NCBI GenBank assembly: GCA_039984955.1
Contig: JBDWTN010000006.1
Coordinates: forward strand, 1 to 64,000
Origin: Marinobacter alexandrii
Lineage (GTDB): Bacteria; Bacteroidota; Bacteroidia; Cytophagales; Cyclobacteriaceae
Direction of reading: 5' to 3'
DNA length: 64,000 nucleotides
This document shows, in pieces, positions 41,168 through 48,023 of the stretch; the first letter of the stretch is position 1, and each line of letters opens with the position of its first letter. The notes under the pieces were generated by a model. The model did not search any database. It saw nothing but the letters and a program-made list of their open reading frames with translations, and was not told where the DNA came from. Both the position numbers and the translations under genes were made by a program.

Positions 41168-42406
41168 TTATTCTTTTATCAAACGCTTAGTTAATTTCCC
41201 TAATTCAGTTTCGATAGTAACAAAATAAACTCCTGAATTCATTTTACTTAGATCCAGTTTTCTTGTTGAGTTGTCCACCTTGGATAACTCAGAACCTGAA
41301 ATATCGGTAATGGAAATTGATAAAATCTGCTGGTTATTACTTAAACTGAGATATGTCACACCTCGCGCAGGATTCGGATATAATTTAAAACTAAATGCTT
41401 CTGTATCAGCACCCACACCAGTAATCAGGTTTGGATCCCTATCCCAATTGTAGACAATATTTCTTACCATATTTCCTGATGTGGTCAAATCATTGGCTGA
41501 CCAATTCCCATTAGTATTTGAACCCGGTCTTAAAGCAGATGCTCCTTCATTTTTATCATTGAGAGCCCAATTACAATGACTGATATTGTTTTCTTGAAGA
41601 AAGTCCATCCAAAGCTGTGTTTCAGATGCATCTACACTACCATCACCATTTGCATTGACAGCTCCCCATTCAGTAACCATGAGCGCTATTCCATTATTTA
41701 ATGCTACCTGAGCTTTATTTCTCAGCGATTGACCATGTGTCCCAGCATAGAAATGCAGTGTATAAGCAATATTGGAATAACCCATTATCGGATTGTTAGA
41801 AGCGATATCAACATCTTGTGACCAAGTAGAAGTACCTACAATGATTAAGTTATCATTATCAATAGCTCTAATCGCAGCAATAACAGCTTCTGCATATGGT
41901 TTGATTGAATTCGACCATGATGTTGTATTCAAAGGCTCATTGTAAATTTCATAAATCACATGCTCATTATCCCCGTAAAGAGTCGCCATCTCTTCAAAAA
42001 ACGCTATCGCCTCTTCTTCGTAATCTTCTGCGTGATGAGAGTGCCAATCAATGATTACATAAATACCCAAATCAATAGCGGCATCAACAACGGTCTTTAC
42101 TTTCTGGCTGTTCGAGGCATCTGAAAGGTATCCGCCATTTTCGTCAACTCCCATAGCTGCTCTAACAATAGTTGTATTCCAATCAGCATGTAGCCACTCG
42201 ACTACAGCAGGTTTATAGAAATCTTCTCCTCCCCAACCTGTATTGCTCCAAAACAAGCTATTTCCCGCGAACGAAACTGCTTGCCCATCCTTGTTAACTA
42301 TTTGATTTCCCATTACAGATAATGCACCATGAGTCTCAACTGGTGTTTGGGCTACACCGCCAAAAAGGATACAAATGGTGCATAGAAATGTGATCAATAC
42401 TTTCAT
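41168..42406 (-). CDS. GH5 endoglucanase-type glycoside hydrolase with T9SS sorting domain
   Basis: The protein has 412 residues. A signal peptide (to about residue 20, VAQ) is followed by a TIM-barrel GH5 domain (about 25-315) with the acid/base E157 in YNEP and the nucleophile E246 in VTEWG; WHSHH (121-125) and HFYAGTHG (218-225) line the site. A linker leads to the type A T9SS C-terminal domain (about 335-412: LYPNPARG, ISDISG-like, GVYFVTIETELGKLTKRLIKE). It is thus exported by the type IX system and fixed to or released from the cell surface, where it probably cuts cellulose or a related beta-1,4-glucan. It is a single gene. Confidence 0.94.
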   Translation of the reverse strand: MKVLITFLCTICILFGGVAQTPVETHGALSVMGNQIVNKDGQAVSFAGNSLFWSNTGWGGEDFYKPAVVEWLHADWNTTIVRAAMGVDENGGYLSDASNSQKVKTVVDAAIDLGIYVIIDWHSHHAEDYEEEAIAFFEEMATLYGDNEHVIYEIYNEPLNTTSWSNSIKPYAEAVIAAIRAIDNDNLIIVGTSTWSQDVDIASNNPIMGYSNIAYTLHFYAGTHGQSLRNKAQVALNNGIALMVTEWGAVNANGDGSVDASETQLWMDFLQENNISHCNWALNDKNEGASALRPGSNTNGNWSANDLTTSGNMVRNIVYNWDRDPNLITGVGADTEAFSFKLYPNPARGVTYLSLSNNQQILSISITDISGSELSKVDNSTRKLDLSKMNSGVYFVTIETELGKLTKRLIKE

Positions 42407-42651: not shown

Positions 42652-43830
42652 ATGCTCCTCCTCTTCCCTGTTTTTAATCTTTATGGATCCTCTCTTTTAA
42701 TTCTTTCTTCGCAAGGATTAATCTTCAGTTTTCTACTCTTTAAGCGCTATTATCAACAACGAAATACATCTGACCTATTGTTGGGTTTGATTCTGATAAT
42801 CACTTGCTACCACCAGACCGCCTACACCATTGGCTTCATGGATTGGTATGACACATACAGAACAACGAAGATTAATTATTACCTGGTGGATCTTTCGTTG
42901 GCGCTGGCTCCCCTCCTTTTCTTTTACATTAAATCGATCATACAGCCAGATTTCAAACTTAAGGACATTAATCTTTGGCACTTTGCGCCAGTGCTTATTT
43001 ATATGCTCATCAAACTTTTCGTTTGGATTTATGATGCTCAACAAGATGGGTTTCATGAAGTCCAGAACGGGCCTATGGTTATGCAGTTTGAGTGGAAGTT
43101 TTTGAATCCTTTTCTGTTTCTTTTCAGAACGATTCAGATGCTTTTGTATCTCGCATTCTCTTTTCAAATATTCTTTGCCTTTCGCGAAAAGATTAAACAC
43201 TACTTTGCCAACACCTACCGCCTTGAGCTCAGGTGGCTTCAAAACTTTCTATTTGCTTATAGTTTTTTGTATTTATTCTATAGTATTCAGATTGTTGTTA
43301 ACGAAATGATTATCGATTTGAGCTGGAAGCAAAAATGGTGGTTCTATTTATTATCCGGCATTACCATTATTTATGTAGGTATCAAGGGGTTTTTCACTGA
43401 AATCTCAGAGCTTAAAAGTGTAGATTTCGGAACATTTAAGCTCCCAAAAAATGAACCTTCTCGAACTGTGAAAAAAGAATCGGTGGATCAATTTTCAGAA
43501 AAGAAAGCATTAATCAATAATTATTTTGAAGACCATAAACCCTACCTAGACTCTGAACTTACATTGATTAGTCTGGCCAGCAGACTAGATATGTCGAGGG
43601 AAGAATTGTCTGATATTATCAACCAGGGGTTCGAGTCTAGATTTAATGACTTTATTAACTCCTATCGCATAAAGGAAACTAAAAGACTTATCCTTGAAGA
43701 CAAGCACAAGACACTATCACTTCTGGGGTTAGCATTCGAAGCAGGATTTAACAGCAAGGCTACTTTTAATCGAGCTTTCAAAAAATCAGAAAATCAATCT
43801 CCTTCAGAATACCTTGAATCAATGACTTAA
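42652..43830 (+). CDS. Membrane-anchored AraC-family regulator (third copy)
   Basis: The protein has 392 residues. Seven or so membrane spans (about 5-250) are followed by an AraC domain (about 285-390) with LASRLDMSREELSDIINQGFESRFNDFINSYRIKETKR and AGFNSKATFNRAFKKSENQSPSEYL. It is closest in appearance to the regulator at 5935: the same membrane topology, and the 'INQGF...RFNDFIN' recognition region matches 'INQGFKMNFNDFIN' there. It sits 103 bases upstream of the DoxX::S41 fusion gene on the same strand, which is its presumed target. Confidence 0.92.
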   Translation: MLLLFPVFNLYGSSLLILSSQGLIFSFLLFKRYYQQRNTSDLLLGLILIITCYHQTAYTIGFMDWYDTYRTTKINYYLVDLSLALAPLLFFYIKSIIQPDFKLKDINLWHFAPVLIYMLIKLFVWIYDAQQDGFHEVQNGPMVMQFEWKFLNPFLFLFRTIQMLLYLAFSFQIFFAFREKIKHYFANTYRLELRWLQNFLFAYSFLYLFYSIQIVVNEMIIDLSWKQKWWFYLLSGITIIYVGIKGFFTEISELKSVDFGTFKLPKNEPSRTVKKESVDQFSEKKALINNYFEDHKPYLDSELTLISLASRLDMSREELSDIINQGFESRFNDFINSYRIKETKRLILEDKHKTLSLLGLAFEAGFNSKATFNRAFKKSENQSPSEYLESMT

Positions 43831-43932: not shown

Positions 43933-46260
43933 ATGATGAACATTATTGAAAAACTTACACAAACAAATCCTCAGTCAAATAGATTAGCAGATGTAATGGT
44001 ATCTATTCCACGTATCGTATGTGGATTGCTACTTGCCTTTGATTTTGGGGCATCCAAATTTGGTGTTCCATGGTCTTCCAACAACCTACCTTTTCTGGGA
44101 ATACCAGAGTGGTTTGTAGAGGACATTGCCACCTTCGGTGGGTTATTTGCGGTGGCTCCATACTTCTTTGCCTGGATGGCGGCTGCAAGTGAAACTATTG
44201 GAGGTCTATTACTAGCGCTTGGCTTAAAAACACGTTTCGCTTCATTCCTCATTATGTGTACAATGCTGGCAGCTATCATTTTCCAACAATGGGATAATGG
44301 ACTATGGAATATGCTCCCTGCTGCCGGCTTCCTCTGGGTCAGCACGTACAGTCTCGTGATGGGGTCAGGAAGATTCGGCTTGGATCATTTGCTGAGCAAA
44401 GTCATAAAAAGAAGAAGGTTAATGCATATTCCCATAGGTCAAATCAAACTAAAGACCTCTGTCCCAAAAACTCTTTCCATAATCTTTTTAGCAGGTGTTT
44501 CTCTCACAAATTGCTCGTTGTTTGCTCAAGAGCGAAAGGTCACAATCAGTGTAGATATGAGTAGGATAAATCATATAGAAAATGTGGGAGTTAAGGGAAA
44601 TATTAAGCCCCTTTCCTGGGAAAAGGCATACCCACTTTTAGATGAAGATGGAGATGGAATTTATACTGCTGAGATAGTCTTCAATAGCTCAGATAGATAT
44701 TTCAGATTCAAGTTTGTTAATGATGGTCAAATGGAATTGGAAGGATCAGACAATCGAATCTTATGGTTTAAAGATGAGCCCATATCGAAGACATATATTT
44801 TCAATGAATTTGAATACTATGATGAAGGTAAATTCAAGCAGCTCATATACACAGAAGAGCAAATAAAAGAAGATGTAGCTGTCTTAAAGAAGATCATTCA
44901 ATACGTTCATCCTGCTATTTACAAATACAGAGATTCTGTTTCTCTACAAATCGATTTTCAACTACTAGAAGACGAGATGATCGCTCAGCCCGATTTAAGA
45001 AATGCTTATAAAGCTGTTTCAAAATTCGCAGCTACAATCAAATGCAGTCATACATTCACCAACCCATGGAACCAAGGAGCTACCATAGAAAAAGCTATGT
45101 TTTACCAGCCTGATAAACTGCCATTTACTTTCAAAAGGATCGGCAAAAGACTATTCATTGATAAGAATGCATCCGAAAATAAAAAGCTAACACAAGGCTT
45201 GGAAATTCTATCCATCAATGATAACTCTACAGAAATCATCCTAACATCCTTAGCACAATATGTCACTTCAGATGGAAATAATTATGAGAAGAAACTCGAA
45301 CGTCTATCTCTTGCAGGAACAGAGAAGTTTTCATTGTTTGACATCTTCTTTCCATTAGAATTTGGAAGTAAAGAAACATTTGAGCTTGAACTTAGAGATA
45401 ATCAATCTGGAAAGATTCTGCATGAAACAGTGAAAGCAACCTCCAAAACTAATCGAACCAAAACCCTAAAAGAGCGATATCAAAACTTGGAAATAAGCTT
45501 GAGGGACGGCTGGAACTTCAAACTCATAAACGATGAGGTTGGCATCTTGACCATCAAATCTTTTGCCGTGCAAAGAAATGAATTTGATTGGAAAAAGATC
45601 ATTGACGAGGCTTTTGAAGAATTAAACACCAACCAAACCCCTAACCTAATCATAGACATTCGCGAAAATGAAGGAGGGCAAGGAGAAGTTGGTGAATACA
45701 TTATCGAGAGGGTTATTCAAAAGCCCTTTACTGCTCCTGCCATGCAATCCTCCGTTAGATACTTATCCATCCCGGAGGAATTCAAAAAACACATGAATAC
45801 CTGGGCGAAATTTCCTTATGACTTCAACGGAAAAGTAGGTAAGAAAAAGGATGGCAAATACATGCTCAAACCAAAATACACCGTAGCTGGTAAAACATAC
45901 AAACCCAAAAAGAATGGTTACAAAGGGAAAGTTTTTCTCCTCACAGGTGCTTCCAACAGCTCTGCAACTCATCTTATGGCTGCATATGCAAAACAAGTTG
46001 AAGGTGTAACGTTGGTCGGTCAAGAAACAGGTGGGAATCAATTGGGAACTAACGGAAGCTTTATGTTCTTTCTCAGACTACCAAATACGAGAGTAGAAAT
46101 TGATATTCCAGTGATCAATATGTTTGTTCCACCTGTATCGGGAGAGGCAAAAGATGGTGGAATTGTACCTGATGTTTATGTTGAAAAGAGTTGGAAAGAT
46201 CTCGTTAGTGGAAATGACCCAGAATTAACGAAAACGCTAGAATTGATTAACAAAAATTGA
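43933..46260 (+). CDS. DoxX-like membrane domain fused to an exported S41-type peptidase
   Basis: The protein has 775 residues. Residues about 20-150 form a four-span DoxX domain with the family's GLLLALGLKTRFAS stretch. At 164-199 a second hydrophobic segment (start M164, ending SLFAQ) looks exactly like a signal peptide, now internal. Residues about 200-295 form a beta-sandwich with DEDGDGIYTAEI, like a glycogen-binding-type module. Residues about 305-770 are an S41 (C-terminal-processing-like) peptidase with LIIDIRENEGG (572-582) and the nucleophile region GASNSSAT (S677 likely). It is probably a fusion of two formerly separate genes. Oxidoreductase-membrane and protease functions are family-level guesses. 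Confidence 0.88.
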   Translation: MMNIIEKLTQTNPQSNRLADVMVSIPRIVCGLLLAFDFGASKFGVPWSSNNLPFLGIPEWFVEDIATFGGLFAVAPYFFAWMAAASETIGGLLLALGLKTRFASFLIMCTMLAAIIFQQWDNGLWNMLPAAGFLWVSTYSLVMGSGRFGLDHLLSKVIKRRRLMHIPIGQIKLKTSVPKTLSIIFLAGVSLTNCSLFAQERKVTISVDMSRINHIENVGVKGNIKPLSWEKAYPLLDEDGDGIYTAEIVFNSSDRYFRFKFVNDGQMELEGSDNRILWFKDEPISKTYIFNEFEYYDEGKFKQLIYTEEQIKEDVAVLKKIIQYVHPAIYKYRDSVSLQIDFQLLEDEMIAQPDLRNAYKAVSKFAATIKCSHTFTNPWNQGATIEKAMFYQPDKLPFTFKRIGKRLFIDKNASENKKLTQGLEILSINDNSTEIILTSLAQYVTSDGNNYEKKLERLSLAGTEKFSLFDIFFPLEFGSKETFELELRDNQSGKILHETVKATSKTNRTKTLKERYQNLEISLRDGWNFKLINDEVGILTIKSFAVQRNEFDWKKIIDEAFEELNTNQTPNLIIDIRENEGGQGEVGEYIIERVIQKPFTAPAMQSSVRYLSIPEEFKKHMNTWAKFPYDFNGKVGKKKDGKYMLKPKYTVAGKTYKPKKNGYKGKVFLLTGASNSSATHLMAAYAKQVEGVTLVGQETGGNQLGTNGSFMFFLRLPNTRVEIDIPVINMFVPPVSGEAKDGGIVPDVYVEKSWKDLVSGNDPELTKTLELINKN

Positions 46261-46268
46261 TAGGTAAT

Positions 46269-46299
46269 GATGCGCACTGATCACAGGTTGGTGCGTATC
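46269..46299. terminator. Convergent hairpin between S41 fusion and EF-hand genes
   Basis: GATGCGCAC (46269-46277) pairs with GTGCGTATC (46291-46299) with one wobble. It lies between two genes that end toward each other, so it probably ends transcription in both directions. T-tracts are short. Confidence 0.45.
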
Positions 46300-46850
46300 T
46301 ATTCTTCTGTAGATTTACTCCAATCTCCAAAAATCCAATTACCAGCAGCATCAGCATCCGAAGAATGAAAGAAATCTTCAAACGCCTTAACCAGCTCTCC
46401 CCCACTTATTTTACCATCTCCATTTATATCCAATAAGTCAAATGCCTTTTTTGCAACTGACATATAAAGGCCATATGCCTTAAACATATCCAAATACTCA
46501 CCTTCATCTATATGGCCATCACCATCTTGATCAAATAAGGAGAATAAGTAAGTGGACGATTGATTTACATAATCATTCGGTTGGGAAAGAACCACATCAT
46601 CAAAAAACTTCAGCCACTCTTCTAAAGAAATTTCCGCTTCCACTTTATCTATGTCCTTCAAGATTTGAATGAATAATCCGTGAGCTTTAAGTCTCAGTAA
46701 TAAACGCTCACGAGAATTCTCTCTATACCCGATAATGGTACTTACCGTGTTACCCACTCTTTCGAAATCATCCTGTTCCAGAATCTCATTCCCATTATAG
46801 TCCAGGACATTGAAAAAATGAGAGAGTTTTTGCTTTTGTAAATCTGTCAT
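46299..46850 (-). CDS. Four-EF-hand calcium-binding protein (calerythrin/sarcoplasmic-type)
   Basis: The protein has 183 residues with no signal peptide, so it is cytoplasmic. EF-hand loops: residues 17-28 (DYNGNEILEQDD, atypical last residue), a degenerate one near 66-78 (DIDKVEAEISLEE), and two canonical loops at 107-118 (DQDGDGHIDEGE) and 141-152 (DINGDGKISGGE). The spacing and the GNWIFG ending resemble bacterial calerythrin and invertebrate sarcoplasmic calcium-binding proteins more than single EF-hand bacterial proteins. Its likely role is as a calcium buffer or sensor. It is a single gene convergent with the S41 fusion gene and divergent from the fourth AraC gene. Confidence 0.92.
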   Translation of the reverse strand: MTDLQKQKLSHFFNVLDYNGNEILEQDDFERVGNTVSTIIGYRENSRERLLLRLKAHGLFIQILKDIDKVEAEISLEEWLKFFDDVVLSQPNDYVNQSSTYLFSLFDQDGDGHIDEGEYLDMFKAYGLYMSVAKKAFDLLDINGDGKISGGELVKAFEDFFHSSDADAAGNWIFGDWSKSTEE

Positions 46851-46937: not shown

Positions 46938-48023
46938 ATGGAATTCGGAATTGTAGAAATAATTCTCTTAACGAGCTTGATCAATTCAATCTTCTTTCTG
47001 GGACTCATCCATTTAAACCCCAAAAGATACAGTCAGGTCAATCACGCTTTGGTCATGTTCATCTTCCTATCCTCAGTAAACTTTGCTAGTTGGATTGTAC
47101 TCCCTTATTGGGTTGAAGAATATGAGTGGATTTGTCTAGATCGATTTCCCGTGGTTTTCTTTCTCGGACCCTACATTTATATGTTCTCTACCGCATTATT
47201 TGGTAAATCAGACGCCAAGGACAAAAACTACAAAATATTTATTGGAGGATATTTAGATGTGTTGATTACAATCTCATTATGGATATACATCTACTTTTTT
47301 TCCTTTGAAGATAGGTTTGAGCTTCTCTTTGATACACTCACCTTACTCATTTACGAAACCTTGGCCATTTTACATACAGGGTATTTCGTATATCTCGCAA
47401 TCAAGCATTTCATGAATGGGAGTATTAACATTCCGAGATTAAGGCATGTATTTATCCTAATCGTTGTTATCTATTTCTTATGGGTAGGAACATTTCTAGC
47501 AGATGCTGCAGTTTATCCATCCCAATTACCCGATACTGCATTCTATCCTACATGGATGTTGATGGTATATCTAAACTTTTATTTAGCTTATCATTTCATT
47601 CTAAACCCAACAAAGTCAGTTTCGCTAATAACTTCAGATAAAAAGCTTGCTTCAACGAAAACGCTTGATTTAGCCTGCAATTTGAAAGAAATCATGCTAG
47701 AAAAAAGACTCTATAGAAAACCTGATTTATCTCTCTCTTTCATTGCAGCTGAATTAAATACTTCATCAAACTCGCTTACAGAAGTTCTTAAGGAGCATTT
47801 TAGGCTCACCTACTACGATTTTATAAATGAATATAGGATTTTGGATATAGTAGAGAGGTTTAAGAATGGAGATGATAGGAAATACACCATAAAGACTATT
47901 TCTGAAGAAGCTGGTTTCAGGTCGAAAACCACCTTCATCAAGGCTTTCAAAAAGGAAACCGGTATGCTCCCAAAAGAATATTTAAGTTCAGTTCAACAAA
48001 AAGGAAGTCCAACTGAGCTCTAA
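46938..48023 (+). CDS. Membrane-anchored AraC-family regulator (fourth copy)
   Basis: The protein has 361 residues, with about seven membrane spans in residues 5-225. The AraC domain (about 250-352) has FIAAELNTSSNSLTEVLKEHFRLTYYDFINEYRI and AGFRSKTTFIKAFKKETGMLPKEYL. It directly precedes the cadherin-repeat lipoprotein gene on the same strand (72 bases to the preferred ATG), which repeats the regulator-plus-exported-protein theme of the other three. The sensed signal is unknown. Confidence 0.91.
   Translation: MEFGIVEIILLTSLINSIFFLGLIHLNPKRYSQVNHALVMFIFLSSVNFASWIVLPYWVEEYEWICLDRFPVVFFLGPYIYMFSTALFGKSDAKDKNYKIFIGGYLDVLITISLWIYIYFFSFEDRFELLFDTLTLLIYETLAILHTGYFVYLAIKHFMNGSINIPRLRHVFILIVVIYFLWVGTFLADAAVYPSQLPDTAFYPTWMLMVYLNFYLAYHFILNPTKSVSLITSDKKLASTKTLDLACNLKEIMLEKRLYRKPDLSLSFIAAELNTSSNSLTEVLKEHFRLTYYDFINEYRILDIVERFKNGDDRKYTIKTISEEAGFRSKTTFIKAFKKETGMLPKEYLSSVQQKGSPTEL

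Follow-up and report, generated by a model that had tools for sequence, protein, structure and literature searches.

A single gene of Marinobacter alexandrii joins a DoxX membrane protein to a beta-sandwich and an S41 peptidase, with a signal-peptide-like stretch kept at the junction, and it belongs to a group of genes in which the DoxX protein of an AraC-associated cassette is fused to a secreted partner. The gene occupies an uninterrupted frame of 775 codons at 43933-46260 on the plus strand of the window, the whole 64,000-nucleotide stretch of DNA that was analysed. Such a fusion had been proposed in the initial annotation and it is borne out by the single frame, by Pfam matches to DoxX and S41 that both exceed their cut-offs and by a full-length match in a genome of a different genus of the same family (G154). 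The companion proposal, that the old signal peptide is retained inside the protein, also stands: M164 is encoded by the ATG at 44422, S195 to Q199 read SLFAQ and the sequence is still signal-peptide-like. We judge it somewhat better than an even chance that this former signal peptide continues to serve in export of the protein's C-terminal half and is then cut, which would make the product a polyprotein of a membrane protein and a secreted protein. The regulator that precedes the gene, and the parts of the gene itself, are as follows.

42652-43830, plus strand: AraC-type regulator with a hydrophobic N-terminal half (Pfam HTH_18, hydropathy), ending 102 bases ahead of the fusion gene.
43933-46260, plus strand: fusion gene for DoxX, internal signal, beta-sandwich and S41 peptidase, 775 amino acids (open frame, Pfam, full-length 67% homologue in G154).
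43933-44403, plus strand: DoxX domain, residues 1-157 (Pfam), resembling the stand-alone DoxX proteins of about 160 amino acids of the KFGxPW subfamily.
44404-44448, plus strand: basic junction linker, residues 158-172 (IKRRRLMHIPIGQIK), identical in G154 at 12 of 15 positions.
44422-44424, plus strand: internal ATG (M164); G154 has CTT, with TTG one codon earlier.
44467-44529, plus strand: core and cleavage motifs of the internal signal, residues 179-199 (KTLSIIFLAGVSLTNCSLFAQ), with a candidate type I site after A198 and a candidate lipobox cysteine, C194.
44530-44817, plus strand: beta-sandwich of predicted CBM20-like fold, residues 200-295 (model pLDDT 89; Foldseek match to CBM20 of STBD1, E 3.2e-5; weak AMPK1_CBM match below cut-off).
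44818-46257, plus strand: S41 peptidase region, residues 296-775 (Pfam; candidate catalytic H373 and S677 invariant).

The protein of G154 matches residues 2-774 at 67% in a single frame with zero stops. In the alignment 111 of 157 positions are identical in the DoxX domain, 12 of 15 in the linker and 331 of 479 in the S41 region. Over codons 158-171 the two proteins share 12 of 14 residues, and eight of the 12 base differences are silent; this conservation of linker residues through silent change argues that the junction is translated and selected as protein. Values of pN/pS (0.40 for codons 153-175, 0.28 for codons 176-200 and 0.21-0.33 for the domains) indicate that purifying selection runs through the junction, with a strength that is rough because synonymous sites are saturated in this comparison. 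The full-length fusion was found in two of 390 genomes of the family, a sample drawn from a larger group, the two being the window's own genome and G154; a search of 59 relatives returned a full-length match in the window's own genome only. In a genome of the same genus (L006) a stand-alone DoxX protein, 51% identical, terminates in ...GSGKFGIDYFISEK where the DoxX domain of the window ends.

Both domains are recognised by Pfam: DoxX (PF07681) at residues 66-117 (7.8e-11, 42.9 bits against a cut-off of 23.6) and Peptidase_S41 (PF03572) at residues 536-750 (7.2e-17, 61.9 bits against a cut-off of 24). H373 and S677, which by their motifs are the candidate catalytic residues, are invariant in all 16 aligned S41 proteins, the window's included. 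In E. coli Prc a lysine lies about 25 residues past the catalytic serine, forming a Ser/Lys dyad. A C-terminal processing peptidase of this kind was considered for the window and rejected: residue 702 is asparagine and the NCBIfam prc model (TIGR00225), which has a cut-off of 218.6 bits, scores 24.9. Assignment to the HvfX family RiPP maturation proteins (NF050144) was also rejected, at 32 bits under a curated cut-off of 80. A model of the full-length protein is of fair quality (mean pLDDT 68.8), and in Foldseek it comes closest to 4ghn and CPAF, presumably peptidase structures without a DoxX part, which share the fold at 13-17% identity; residues 160-194 have pLDDT below 50, so this model gives nothing reliable on topology. 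The beta-sandwich (about residues 200-295) has Pfam matches that are all below cut-off. Modelled alone (99 residues, mean pLDDT 89), it resembles in Foldseek the CBM20 of STBD1 (E 3.2e-5), CBM41 and the glycogen-binding module of AMPK beta (E 0.0011), which makes it a candidate starch-binding-like module of the CBM20/CBM48 type, with a sequence that lies below the Pfam cut-offs.

The view in the initial annotation that two genes had been joined behind an AraC gene agrees with what is found elsewhere in the phylum, where the two kinds of gene occur separately and are accompanied by the window's AraC subfamily. AraC proteins in ten of 51 loci match that of the window at E 1.1e-101 or better, many of the 51 being too short to hold an upstream gene and others having more distant AraC genes or none. 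The ten lie beside a separate DoxX gene (L067, L099, L100), a sandwich-S41 gene (L059, L061, L066), a DoxX-GIN fusion (L108-L110) or the other S41 fusion (L037). At L064 (Saprospiraceae), L065 (Chitinophagaceae) and L067 (Flavobacteriaceae) an AraC gene accompanies a stand-alone DoxX of about 160-180 amino acids and a separate small sandwich lipoprotein; the AraC gene is divergent at L064, and one extra gene lies between DoxX and the lipoprotein at L067. Stand-alone sandwich-S41 proteins with their own signal peptides, and AraC adjacent or a few genes off, are encoded at L059 and L061 (Saprospiraceae) and L066 (Maribacter algarum). Where relatives have a separately translated secreted gene downstream of DoxX, the two are set apart by a short gap or overlap. 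Exported proteins of about 160-180 amino acids, alike by eye, are encoded after DoxX or in the same cassette at L067 (5492-5977), L136 (just after DoxX) and L066 (2582-3100). The window itself contains a second AraC-type regulator (46938-48023), 33% identical to the first across 98 C-terminal residues and with an N-terminal half that is hydrophobic by eye.

The distribution of the DoxX subfamily was followed with a DoxX profile search at E 1e-28 or better. Genomes with a match came from samples of the order (18 of 390), the phylum (14 of 395), genus g40 (18 of 120), family f43 (three of 92), family f26 (26 of 269) and another order (nine of 268); these samples overlap, and those of the order and phylum include the window's genome. 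Across 75 loci, among which named-genome loci and the remainder may in places represent the same organisms, DoxX mostly stands alone, and then usually with a separate sandwich lipoprotein. Such a lipoprotein is present at 41 loci, its domain beginning 40-573 bases past the DoxX stop. Another 18 loci have no sandwich lipoprotein within that reach (L120 has one farther off); in five of these (L097, L098, L124, L145, L146) a separate GIN match begins 13-61 bases past the DoxX stop, and at L119 and L123 a separate GIN match lies about 500 bases past it.

At the other 16 loci DoxX is fused to a secreted partner. The partner is the sandwich lipoprotein in 11 cases (nine in g40, L096 and L150), a GIN/DUF2807 protein in three (L108-L110, of which L108 alone was run against Pfam) and the sandwich-S41 protein in two (the window and L037); these classes were set by reading the sequences, since the S41 profile also contains the sandwich and so cannot separate the two. 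The nine g40 fusions (L084, L086, L087, L088, L090, L093, L095, L111, L115) have a complete internal lipobox, L093 being counted as fused on a frame that is open from a methionine ahead of the DoxX domain through the end of the sandwich. The three in-frame DoxX-GIN fusions are from family f43 and lie behind an AraC gene of the window's subfamily. At L150 (reverse strand) the DoxX domain is split over two frames and the lipobox cysteine is lost, so that this gene has probably broken down, unless the assembly is at fault here. All 26 DoxX loci in family f26 are unfused. On a DoxX tree of 42 rows (15 fused and 27 separate, with L118-L150 left out) the fused or separate state requires seven changes, of which at least five are forced by well-supported branches; each change may be a gain or a loss, and the branches that lead to L095 and L096 are long. 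Support is 100/99 for the pairing of the window with L037 and 100/98 for the GIN fusions.

DoxX and the sandwich-S41 protein do each occur separately in relatives, the comparison that the initial annotation had called for, but an adjacent unfused pair was not clearly present at any of the 75 loci, most of which reach only about 1,500 bases beyond DoxX, and the S41 profile could not tell S41 from sandwich by score. Loss of a stop codon is therefore unsupported as the joining event for this pair. Genus g40 is the only one with both states. In nine other g40 genomes DoxX and the lipoprotein are two overlapping genes in different frames, with an overlap of 14 bases between the lipoprotein ATG and the DoxX stop (11 in L116); in the fused loci the frame is changed relative to these split forms and the lipoprotein ATG is gone.

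In the window the sequence between DoxX and the sandwich runs from a basic linker (IKRRR) through a hydrophobic core to L-T-N-C, followed by S-L-F-A-Q. The window and G154 both retain L-T-[NS]-C and A-Q-E at the end of the signal, while the lengths of their cores differ by four residues, and the distance from C194, or from the G154 cysteine, to the sandwich equals that in stand-alone lipoproteins. The lipobox has the pattern [LIV]-[ASTVI]-[GAS]-C, with which the LTSC of G154 agrees and the LTNC of the window disagrees at -1. The residue preceding the cysteine in 42 stand-alone cassette lipoproteins is serine in 19, glycine in 12, alanine in eight and asparagine in three, which makes the LTNC of the window unusual, though not unheard of. 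Among the g40 fusions, L-P-[GS]-C-V-Q is kept in nine of nine, which are mutually related and not nine independent trials. Mean column entropy in the g40 lipobox (-3 to 0) is 0.19 bit in nine fused genes and 0.23 in nine split ones, so that fused genes conserve it as well as separate ones do. The linker ahead of the signal, by contrast, varies (1.96 fused, 1.92 split); the hydrophobic core gives 1.13 and 1.36, and positions +3 to +60 give 0.80 and 0.49 (ungapped columns). The VQ that follows the cysteine is conserved in fused and split genes alike. The three DoxX-GIN fusions retain an internal hydrophobic stretch ending in AQ ahead of the GIN domain.

We suggest the following scheme. The fusion gene would have been made from an AraC-associated cassette of DoxX with separately exported sandwich, GIN or S41 proteins. 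One chain would be translated; DoxX would insert in the membrane and the basic IKRRR stretch would remain inside, while the old signal peptide would re-enter the Sec route and take the sandwich-S41 half through the inner membrane. Most probably the signal would then be cleaved. Signal peptidase I, acting after A198, is the likelier enzyme, and lipoprotein signal peptidase, acting before C194, the less likely one; the S41 peptidase would come free in soluble or lipid-anchored form, and DoxX would stay behind in equal amount. Topology, cleavage, proteolytic activity and the role of the fusion protein are all things that we infer: export from the arrangement and the positive charge ahead of the core, and cleavage from the cleavage motifs conserved here and the conserved internal lipobox of g40.

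The former signal peptide may instead stay uncut, a tentative reading to which we give roughly one chance in four. DoxX proteins are expected to have four spans, and an uncut signal would form a fifth, by which the S41 half would be tethered next to DoxX on the periplasmic side of the inner membrane. Residues 180-198 are hydrophobic enough for such a span (19-residue Kyte-Doolittle mean of 1.71), and the lipobox cysteine is missing from two fused relatives, L096 and L150, so that the anchor may occur as well. There is a parallel in the MerC-bufferin chimaeras, described in PMC12452194 as predicted five-span proteins with a periplasmic bufferin domain. The retention of A-Q-E and of a lipobox-like cysteine in both S41 fusions speaks against an uncut span, as does the intact lipobox of all nine g40 fusions, which favours cleavage; the hydrophobic core of G154 (LFIVLLL) is short, and fits a cleaved signal better than a membrane span.

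It is improbable that the gene yields two products, the DoxX-S41 protein and a separate S41 precursor begun at the internal ATG at 44422. That ATG is in frame, has a purine-rich stretch upstream (AGAAGAAGG) and stands ahead of the signal-peptide-like sequence, and G154 has a TTG one codon before the corresponding place. The codon for M164 is, however, CTT (leucine) in G154, so that separate translation from this ATG is no shared feature: the internal start that the initial annotation pointed to is present in the window but not common to the two fusions. Of 15 fused genes, only the window, L093 and L095 have an in-frame ATG that lies 12 or more residues ahead of the cysteine (ahead of AQ in the GIN fusions); the other 12 lack one, and GTG or TTG occurs in some fused genes. 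That two genes were falsely joined by an error in sequencing or assembly, or by a frameshift peculiar to this strain, is very improbable indeed: a TAATG stop/start overlap does lie in another frame at 44420-44424, directly after five A, where a one-base homopolymer indel might be sought, but G154 lacks the TAATG and keeps the protein junction, with linker residues conserved through silent changes in a full-length frame from another genus, which contradicts the concern about sequencing error raised in the initial annotation.

Export and cleavage of the former signal peptide, our preferred reading, could be extended from the window to the cassette as a whole. We put at about even the chance that its DoxX is a repeated fusion acceptor, to which three kinds of exported partner have been joined in frame, usually with loss of the partner's start and with the export signal (in one genus a complete lipobox) kept under selection. 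Lipoproteins and proteases would then arise as the C-terminal parts of a polytopic membrane precursor, from which signal peptidases would release them, Lsp among these where the lipobox is internal. If cleavage at the internal signals does take place, the genes encode bacterial polyproteins that ordinary signal peptidases set free, and their design fixes DoxX and the secreted partner at a ratio of one to one; they would also offer a test case for whether Lgt and Lsp accept a lipobox distant from the N-terminus. The role of the DoxX family is poorly known, and the fact that it has been fused repeatedly to different secreted neighbours suggests a joint function with them in the envelope.

An internal signal within a membrane precursor is, as a principle, already known. 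FbcH of Bradyrhizobium is the precursor of cytochrome b and cytochrome c1; it differs from the fusion in the window in that its products are respiratory subunits and it has no DoxX, S41 or lipobox. For another species, PMC6256036 speaks of tandem genes that are separate. The Streptomyces Rieske protein (PMC13186574) is respiratory, uses a Tat signal and has no DoxX fusion. The MerC-bufferin chimaeras resemble the window in fusing a small membrane protein to an exported product, with five predicted spans and the exported domain outside, but there (PMC12452194) the membrane protein is MerC rather than DoxX and the product is a RiPP precursor rather than a peptidase. Closer in sequence are the stand-alone proteins of Saprospiraceae L059 (48%) and M. 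algarum L066 (50%), which have sandwich and S41 in the same order, their own signal peptide and the same AraC subfamily nearby, and differ from the window in having no DoxX joined. Among the titles and abstract openings listed in searches of open-licence PMC papers, none describes a DoxX-S41 fusion, a DoxX protein joined repeatedly to various exported neighbours or an internal lipobox kept in fused genes.

Two further genes flank the AraC and fusion genes in the window, both on the minus strand. The gene at 41168-42406 encodes a glycoside hydrolase of family 5 that carries a sorting tail for the Por secretion system, and that at 46299-46850, convergent with the fusion gene, encodes repeated D-x-D-x-D-G motifs that are EF-hand-like by eye.
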